Below are positions 19,174-21,325 of a DNA stretch of 35,555 nucleotides, piece after piece. The notes beneath the pieces were generated by a model that was not told where the DNA came from, made no database searches, and saw only the letters and a list, made by a program, of their open reading frames with translations. The DNA lies in assembly GCA_947038115.1 (NCBI GenBank), contig CAMQVF010000009.1:1-35555 (forward strand), in the 5' to 3' direction. The position numbers were made by a program, and so were the translations under genes. Source of the DNA: an uncultured Spirochaetia bacterium (lineage in GTDB: Bacteria; Spirochaetota; Brachyspiria; Brachyspirales; Brachyspiraceae). Each line of letters opens with the position of its first letter. Within the stretch, counting starts at the first letter, position 1.

Positions 19174-20355
19174 TTGAAAAATAAATATAAAATATTGCTA
19201 TTTTTTGCATTTGCAATAATTTTAGTTAGCTGTAATTATGGTTCAGGTCTCGAGCCTGCCGATTTAGATAAAAATACATCCGTCACTCCATCATCAGACA
19301 AACTATCTATATTTAATAATTTCGCAAATTTAAAATCTAAATTACCAAAAAAAACTAATCCTGTCTATAATGGTAAGGACGATCCAGGGCTATATACAAA
19401 TGCGAAAGACATAGAATATTTTACAAATCCTAACTTTGTATTTTTCGGATCAACTGTTGAGAGTGATGAAATAAATACATCGCCAGCAGCTGCTCAGCCA
19501 GCAAGTTCAATATTTCGAAACATATTTATATTAGAGTTTAGAAAAAAACCGAATAGCGTGGACGAACTAATAGTTAGTTTTAGTTTTGTAAATGAAAAAC
19601 GCTTAGCAGCAACTGGTAATTTGACTGTAAACGAACTATATAATGCACGTACACTGTTACCCGCAAAATCTGAGACTATTAAAGACGGTAAAGGTGGTAT
19701 AGACTTATTTGTAGGTCTTTGGCCTTATTTTCAAAAAATGACATATCTTGACTTGGCAGTTACAAATGGTGCTACTTTGGGATTTATAAATATATTACAA
19801 AATGATATATATACCAATATCTTAGCTGGGTCTAATAATCTATATAGTGGAGCTATTACAAGCGGAGTTCTTACAACAAATGATCTTAATTCTCTCACTC
19901 CGATACCACCAAACGCAACTATTGCGTCTATAAGATCATCAACTGAAAATAAATTATGGAAATCTATAGCTGTACAAAGAATTATCACACCTCCTCCTCC
20001 AGTAACTGCAATAACAAGTACAAATTATTTCCTTAAAGAAGACGGTAATGTAGCTCTTGACCCAGAAGGTACTGCAGCACTTAATGCTGGTAGTCCAAAC
20101 ACGTATACATATGCATGGGATATTTTTAAACAAGAAAATAATACTCTTCCAGGCGAGAACAGCAATAATGATGCATTCCTATATATATATAGAAAAATGA
20201 GACTTATCATAAAACAAGATACTAGAACAACAGATGAACAATCTTTTGATGAAATCGTACTCATTCCGCCTATCAAAACTACTGATGGCCCTGGTGTTAT
20301 TCCTTTTCAACTTAAACCGTCTGGTGTGTTACTTAGACTATCGATAAAACCTTAA
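19174..20355 (+). CDS. Predicted lipoprotein of unknown function
   Basis: A 393-residue protein with signal peptide MKNKYKILLFFAFAIILVSC, lipid-anchored at Cys20. I start it at TTG 19174, six bases after the strong GGGGAGAGG site (19159-19167); an in-frame GTG at 19153 would place that site inside the gene. The mature protein is rich in Asn, Thr, Ser and Pro with a PPPP run near residue 275, and no enzymatic motif. It is probably an exported surface or periplasmic protein restricted to the lineage. TTGACA at 19107 and TATAAT at 19134 lie upstream but 21 bases apart, longer than a standard promoter. It ends convergently, overlapping the last phage-like gene by four bases. Confidence 0.7.
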   Translation: MKNKYKILLFFAFAIILVSCNYGSGLEPADLDKNTSVTPSSDKLSIFNNFANLKSKLPKKTNPVYNGKDDPGLYTNAKDIEYFTNPNFVFFGSTVESDEINTSPAAAQPASSIFRNIFILEFRKKPNSVDELIVSFSFVNEKRLAATGNLTVNELYNARTLLPAKSETIKDGKGGIDLFVGLWPYFQKMTYLDLAVTNGATLGFINILQNDIYTNILAGSNNLYSGAITSGVLTTNDLNSLTPIPPNATIASIRSSTENKLWKSIAVQRIITPPPPVTAITSTNYFLKEDGNVALDPEGTAALNAGSPNTYTYAWDIFKQENNTLPGENSNNDAFLYIYRKMRLIIKQDTRTTDEQSFDEIVLIPPIKTTDGPGVIPFQLKPSGVLLRLSIKP

Positions 20356-20711
20356 AAGTTAAACTCAGCATTATCGTATTTACTATAATTTGTTCGTGTT
20401 TTATTTTGTTCTATCGAAATGATTTCAACTTTGTCATTTATATGTTCTATTAAATTGGAATAATTGCTTTCAAACAGGTTTTCATCTATGCTCAGTTTAT
20501 CGCATATTTTTTTTATTTTTAGTGCATTAGCAATCATTTTATGACTTTCACTCCATTCAATATAAGATTTAGAAAATATTTCAGAATAATTAATACCATT
20601 ATCTTTTTCACTAAAATGCATGCTATCTAATGAGATATTACTAAAACTTTCTTTCGATGAAAAATAGTTAAAAAAATGTTTTATATATTGTGAATTATTG
20701 ACTAGAGTAAA
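20352..20711 (-). CDS. Tail assembly chaperone, -1 frame extension (G-T-like)
   Basis: This is the second frame of the chaperone, meant to be read as a continuation of the 21325-start frame after a -1 shift at the U9 run. From the slip point it adds Phe and then 118 residues (TLVNNSQYIKH...NAEFNF), giving a fusion of 324 residues. The frame is open further upstream to 20789, but an ATG there has only a weak ribosome binding site and would give a Arg-rich start unlike anything in the zero frame, so separate translation is unlikely. In lambda the G-T fusion recruits the tail tape measure protein. A fixed frameshift mutation or a sequencing slip in the run is the alternative. Confidence 0.6.
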   Translation of the reverse strand, partial: FTLVNNSQYIKHFFNYFSSKESFSNISLDSMHFSEKDNGINYSEIFSKSYIEWSESHKMIANALKIKKICDKLSIDENLFESNYSNLIEHINDKVEIISIEQNKTRTNYSKYDNAEFNF

Positions 20712-21325
20712 AAAAAAGATTCTTTTCCCGTTGGAATTAAATTCTCTTTTACATAAAAAATTATCTCTTCTAAAAAATCTGGCTCGCATTTACCAATATC
20801 TAGTGGGGATAAAAAATATTTACTTTTATCTTCTTTGTGTACACTATAAAAAATAAGCATTTTCATCTTGGCGAAATAAGAAAAATATTCGGCAGTATGT
20901 CGATAATGTTTTTCATAAATGGCTTCAGCTTTTTGCAAATTTATAAGTTTATCAGCATCCACATATTTTGTAAGCATTTCTGATAGCTTTAATTTAAAAC
21001 TTTTGACGGTCATATCATTTATAGTGGCAAGCAAATTATGATATTCTTTACTTTCAAGTAATTTTTTAAGTATTTTATATTTATTTTCTAAAATAGAATA
21101 GTCAATACTTAAACTCTCACACTCATCTTTAATTATTTGTGTAACTTGTGCGAATGTAGGCACTCCATTATTAGCAAATTTATTATATGCTATTGCTGAT
21201 TCTTGTTCGATGTGCAAAGTTTCTTCAAGCGTTGGATTAATTAAATAAATAACTTCCTCGCTTGAAAGATTAATTCGCCACTCACCTTTAATAGTATTTT
21301 TAATGGCTCTTGTAAAAATATCCAT
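20702..21325 (-). CDS. Tail assembly chaperone, zero-frame product (G-like)
   Basis: A 207-residue, helical, Lys- and Glu-rich protein ending GKESFFLL. It has no motif that defines a family by eye. The assignment comes from position: it follows the tail tube gene, where tailed phages place the G gene, and it ends in a slippery run that leads into an overlapping frame. An AAGGAG ribosome binding site is at the proper distance from the ATG at 21325. A terminator-like hairpin separates it from the tail tube gene. It is the last complete gene of the minus-strand phage-like cassette; the tape measure gene that would normally follow is missing. Confidence 0.6.
   Translation of the reverse strand: MDIFTRAIKNTIKGEWRINLSSEEVIYLINPTLEETLHIEQESAIAYNKFANNGVPTFAQVTQIIKDECESLSIDYSILENKYKILKKLLESKEYHNLLATINDMTVKSFKLKLSEMLTKYVDADKLINLQKAEAIYEKHYRHTAEYFSYFAKMKMLIFYSVHKEDKSKYFLSPLDIGKCEPDFLEEIIFYVKENLIPTGKESFFLL
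20709..20717 (-). promoter_or_regulatory. Programmed -1 frameshift site (U9 slippery run)
   Basis: The minus strand reads TC, nine T, ACTC. In zero frame this is TCT TTT TTT TTA CTC TAG, containing the heptamer T TTT TTT. A -1 slip at the second TTT gives F-F-F-T-L-V-N-N and enters the downstream 118-codon frame exactly. Nine identical bases would also allow transcriptional slippage, which could produce the same fusion. Confidence 0.6.

Follow-up and report, generated by a model that had tools for sequence, protein, structure and literature searches.

A candidate tail assembly chaperone gene with a probable -1 frameshift at a run of nine U, in a dispersed phage-derived gene set of a Brachyspiraceae bacterium

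We analyzed a stretch of 35,555 nucleotides (the window hereafter; positions 1 to 35,555 of contig CAMQVF010000009.1, assembly GCA_947038115.1) from an uncultured Spirochaetia bacterium of the family Brachyspiraceae, whose genome (G000) is a 1.77 Mb draft of 111 contigs. The element under study consists of two overlapping open reading frames (ORFs) that meet at a run of nine T and together form a candidate tail assembly chaperone gene. Its features are the following (SD, Shine-Dalgarno):

20702..21325, minus strand: zero-frame ORF, candidate tail assembly chaperone G, 207 amino acids; SD of -8.4 kcal/mol, no family match
20709..20717, minus strand: run of nine T (U9 in the mRNA), read from the sequence
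20711..20717, minus strand: slippery heptamer T TTT TTT in zero-frame phase, read from the sequence
20708..20714, minus strand: overlapping second in-phase heptamer, T TTT TTA, read from the sequence
20702..20704, minus strand: zero-frame stop TAG, 6 nt past the first heptamer and 3 nt past the second
20352..20711, minus strand: -1-frame extension (T part) of about 118 to 119 codons, from frame reading and codon scores

The 207-codon ORF has a strong SD sequence, AAGGAGC, and ends in zero frame with the codons AAA GAA TCT TTT TTT TTA CTC TAG. A slip at either heptamer leads into the -1 frame, which runs to the TAA at 20352-20354 and gives a fusion of 324 amino acids. An X XXY YYZ heptamer, as in lambda-type G/GT genes, is thus present in zero-frame phase near the stop, and at the sequence level two frames with a common N-terminal part are joined by a -1 shift. 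A preliminary description of this DNA had reported the two frames meeting at the U9 run (TCT TTT TTT TTA in zero frame), a -1 slip on T TTT TTT that enters a 118-codon downstream frame to make the 324-residue fusion, and a first product longer than lambda gpG; all of these were reproduced. The exact entry into the downstream frame is weak evidence alone, because every T9 run holds a -1 heptamer in phase, no matter how the codons are set against it. For the same reason, only the direction of the shift (-1, not +1) helps to tell programmed slipping from an error of one base.

The coding signal was scored in the two frames with a codon model trained on host genes. The zero frame was best up to the T9 run, and afterwards the -1 frame alone; over the 24 codons that lead up to it, the score was 4.5 for the zero frame versus -1.3 for the -1 frame. 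None of 20,000 Markov sequences with the same dinucleotide content matched the 118 open codons of the downstream frame, and none of 566 host-gene shadow-frame windows matched its codon score. Among true-gene windows this score falls into the lowest 1%, as would fit a protein that changes fast or is unusual. The -1 frame contains a lone ATG upstream of the run (20789), at which the SD is -0.9 kcal/mol versus a gene median of -6.1 kcal/mol. An SD-like stretch of -5.9 kcal/mol accompanies another ATG within the downstream frame (20537), and a start there omits about half of the frame. Because the codon scores switch at the run and ATG 20789 has no Shine-Dalgarno sequence, there is a genuine change of coding frame at the U9 run. 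The downstream frame is without a usable start of its own.

Altogether, the gene probably encodes a lambda G/GT-like tail assembly chaperone that is made by ribosomal -1 frameshifting and is one of a set of phage-derived genes that stand singly at scattered places on the host chromosome. In this mechanism, most ribosomes would keep to the zero frame throughout and yield the 207-residue product (G). A minority would slip by -1 on U UUU UUU or U UUU UUA, immediately ahead of the UAG, and yield the 324-residue G-T fusion. On the lambda model, G would form a coat on the tape measure, and T would bring in the tail protein. We infer the slipping at the U9 site, its ribosomal nature and these binding roles. 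As in lambda G/GT and the -1 frameshift of long-tailed phages (PMC5009743), the overlapping frames lie behind a candidate tail protein gene, an in-phase heptamer is found near the zero-frame stop, and the predicted fusion is the longer product. Unlike lambda G/GT, to which it shows no detectable likeness in sequence or fold, the window pair has a first product of 207 amino acids that exceeds gpG in length, a run of nine U, and no tape-measure gene following it.

The position of the pair agrees with this assignment. Upstream of it on the minus strand lie, in order of transcription, genes for a connector, a head-closure protein, a neck protein, a terminator and a tail protein, all of them intact:

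23264..23554, minus strand: candidate head-tail connector, 96 amino acids; phrog_1732 (function not named), E 2.1e-11, and position
22888..23319, minus strand: candidate head-closure protein, 143 amino acids; position only
22560..22874, minus strand: Neck1 / HK97 gp10-like protein, 104 amino acids; PF04883 E 5.5e-7 (above cut-off), phrog_5 E 2.5e-12
22146..22535, minus strand: candidate tail terminator, 129 amino acids; weak match to the T4 gp15 sheath stabiliser, Pfam E 0.0013, phrog_227 E 0.008
21390..22109, minus strand: candidate major tail (tube) protein, 239 amino acids; position only, AlphaFold pLDDT 36

This gene order is standard in tailed phages, and it would lead one to expect a chaperone where the pair lies, 3' of the 239-amino-acid gene. 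The preliminary description had placed the chaperone just after the tail tube gene. Its location in a head-tail and tail cassette stands, given the PF04883/phrog_5 and phrog_1732 matches and the weak terminator match, but the label 'tail tube' is positional: the 239-amino-acid protein has no family, PDB or phage match, and its model is poor.

Relatives were sought in 30 other genomes of the order, in which the window genome and the same-genus genome G001 form a small genus, g1, and a large genus of the same family, g2 (26 genomes), was taken as Brachyspira from its gene-transfer-agent genes. A different chaperone pair, of the kind found in the gene transfer agent BhGTA/VSH-1, is present in this set. 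In G001, a 106-amino-acid ORF is overlapped by a 101-amino-acid -1 frame at AGT TTT TTT GTC (L044 17789-18381). The pair lies between a 474-amino-acid tail gene and a tape-measure-like gene, within a contiguous phage/gene-transfer-agent cluster (L044:9893-19808, contig C9) whose terminase shares 53% identity with the single g2 terminase. A pair homologous to that of G001 precedes the tape measure in seven g2 genomes (L077, L078, L080, L081, L088, L097 and L098), in which a 118-amino-acid ORF and a -1 frame are joined at AAA AGT TTT TTG/A and the heptamer U UUU UUR is invariant. Pooled over these seven genomes, the ratio of non-synonymous to synonymous polymorphism (pN/pS) was 0.12 in the first frame and 0.22 in the -1 frame past the stop, versus 0.97 and 1.48 in the two remaining frames; the median dN/dS was 0.16. 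There is thus good evidence, drawn from these sequences, that the BhGTA-type tail chaperone has a working -1 frameshift, and slipping is likely ribosomal rather than transcriptional there because the runs are just 6 to 7 U. We found no published report of a frameshift in the Brachyspira gene transfer agent in the literature searched.

The BhGTA-type pairs resemble the window pair in coming from the same host family, in being phage-derived tail genes, and in using a -1 frame at a U UUU UUR/U heptamer. They differ from it in size (118 amino acids, or 106 in G001, plus about 100), in the tape-measure gene that follows and in their shorter U runs, and profile comparison revealed no homology. Because the window chaperone is not detectably related to them, the BhGTA-type evidence supports the window gene by analogy only. 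The preliminary description had called the window frameshift conserved. Conservation of both frames and of the site was found for the BhGTA-type gene, in the seven g2 genomes; for the window gene the word is unsupported, since neither part has a homologue in the 30 other genomes, in IMG/VR or in phage records.

This lack of homologues is one of several points that weigh against a G/GT-like chaperone. Family, AlphaFold and Foldseek searches gave no sequence or fold link to known tail chaperones: the AlphaFold model of the 207-amino-acid protein is all-helical and of low confidence (pLDDT 56), and Foldseek with the AlphaFold models gave no fold assignment. No tape-measure gene follows the pair, the next gene being that of a convergent lipoprotein, although a tape-measure successor is customary for G/GT rather than strictly defining. 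One broad tape-measure family (phrog_28), run against the genome, likewise had no match there, sequence having been taken only from stretches around hits. A/T heptamers often occur in phase close to the end of an ORF here, 63 being counted in 356 open frames. At the slip site there is no convincing 3' stimulatory structure (z -0.4), and the upstream SD-like stretch, at -4.3 kcal/mol, is equalled by 10% of internal windows; no Rfam element was found nearby. Because there is neither a strong 3' structure nor a significant upstream SD-like element, the U9 run must do most of the slipping work. Finally, the count of nine T comes from the assembly alone, with no second genome for comparison.

The weakness of the ribosomal signals bears on a rival explanation, transcriptional slippage, in which RNA polymerase would slip on T9 so that part of the mRNAs carry ten U and the fusion arises by standard translation. 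The U9 run itself fits such slippage, which is reported in bacteria on runs of 9 A or T (review PMC5009743), as does the failure to find a clear ribosomal stimulator at the site. Against it, the analogous sites in relatives have just 6 to 7 U, and the tail chaperone genes of phages as a rule use -1 ribosomal shifting (PMC5009743). We regard transcriptional slippage in place of ribosomal frameshifting as a real alternative, if an unlikely one; the two could operate together, with the same protein as the outcome.

The assembly-derived T count bears on a second rival, in which a single frame of 324 codons was broken by an assembly error or a recent one-base deletion, ten T having been read as, or mutated to, nine. 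Homopolymers are the usual place of such errors, the genome is a draft, and any T9 would look alike after an error given its in-phase heptamer. However, the 22 other runs of 8 to 9 A or T in the window lie within intact genes, which argues that homopolymer assembly errors are not rife in it, and host genes common to the window and G001 are full length. In addition, the break falls in the one cassette gene that is expected to shift by -1, with a stop 3 to 6 nt past the heptamers. On balance, this is an improbable explanation, marginally more so than slippage by the polymerase. A third, two separate overlapping genes with the second starting at ATG 20789 (145 amino acids; the -1 frame is open back to this codon) or past the run, as at ATG 20537 with its SD-like stretch and the loss of about half of the frame, is very improbable given the missing SD at 20789 and the zero-frame codon signal before the run.

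If the gene is a G/GT-like chaperone, it would be one of several phage structural genes in this genome that are intact and dispersed among host genes, which we observed, with no integrase or replication genes, for the terminase, the portal and the tail cassette. The portal gene lies in the window:

27051..28403, plus strand: lone portal protein gene, 450 amino acids; phrog_10963 E 5.5e-24

It is intact and sits between the host genes orf126 and PTS IIA, which adjoin each other in G001, so that the portal site is empty in this same-genus relative (L026:2950-3884). The lone large terminase gene is on contig C17 (L043:10094-11329), between a transporter operon and a LysM gene, and was the only one in the genome found with phrog_2. 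Its product has the Walker A motif GRRFGKS, the DE motif and all nuclease aspartates. It resembles the terminases of the Thermus phages P23-45/P74-26 (27.8% identity over 96%) and matches the P74-26-type terminase nuclease of solved structure (E 9e-21). It differs from the Thermus phage genes in standing single among host genes, without phage neighbours. Its IMG/VR relatives are not accompanied by relatives of the tail cassette. Chaperone, tail protein and portal have no homologue in the 30 other genomes, G001 included, and searches of the order, of IMG/VR, of GTDB contigs and of phage records gave no close homologue of these three, the neck protein or the connector. For a phage capsid, one broad family was run against the genome, with sequence taken only from stretches around hits, and no phage capsid was found.

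Membership of this set in BhGTA/VSH-1 (Brachygtaviriformidae) was rejected, as the sole terminase is of another lineage and the genome has no homologue of the BhGTA-type tape measure. This tape-measure gene occurs in 25 of the 31 genomes (about 370 to 400 amino acids in g2) and is absent from G000. For BhGTA itself, the genome is probably divided, with the terminase outside the main cluster (PMC9662315). Because a decaying prophage seldom leaves intact single genes at separate places, the dispersed set is likely kept under selection. More tentatively, the bacterium may encode a second, independently domesticated particle resembling a gene transfer agent, unrelated to BhGTA, with scattered genes and a retained frameshifted chaperone.

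Frameshifted tail chaperones are common in phages, and the slip site alone is ordinary. Nothing would favour the upkeep of an intact frame pair and slip site in a degenerating remnant, so tails may still be assembled under selection. The proposal of the preliminary description that a particle still assembles tails is supported to that extent, as a possibility, by the intact cassette genes and the motifs kept in the lone terminase. The same reasoning extends to the known Brachyspira gene transfer agent, given the purifying selection in the -1 frame of seven species. If the dispersed set makes particles, this family would have domesticated two unrelated phages. The points of greatest interest fall beyond the given coordinates: the selected frameshift of the BhGTA-type chaperone and the scattered gene set of a possible second particle.

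Two candidates were tried and rejected. The single match to the chaperone within the order, found in G020, is to a host gene that resembles nucleotide hydrolases, and a candidate phage capsid on contig C13 (L074:9526-10715) belongs to the encapsulins (PF04454, E 1e-63) and has a ferritin-like partner.

Some further observations concern gene order. The g2 genomes inspected carry the terminase without a cluster like that of G001. Within g2, the neighbours of the BhGTA-type tape-measure gene vary among genomes (L077-L103), being the terminase, the chaperone pair or another ORF, which indicates that gene order has been reshuffled in this genus. In the window, the tail cassette sits behind the flagellar gene fliN. 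In some g2 genomes, fliN is directly followed by a second, short fliN-like gene (L027:8191-8490, L031:7545-7859, L032:11969-12283), about 75 to 82% identical to the C-terminal part of FliN, at the place where the window has the phage cassette.
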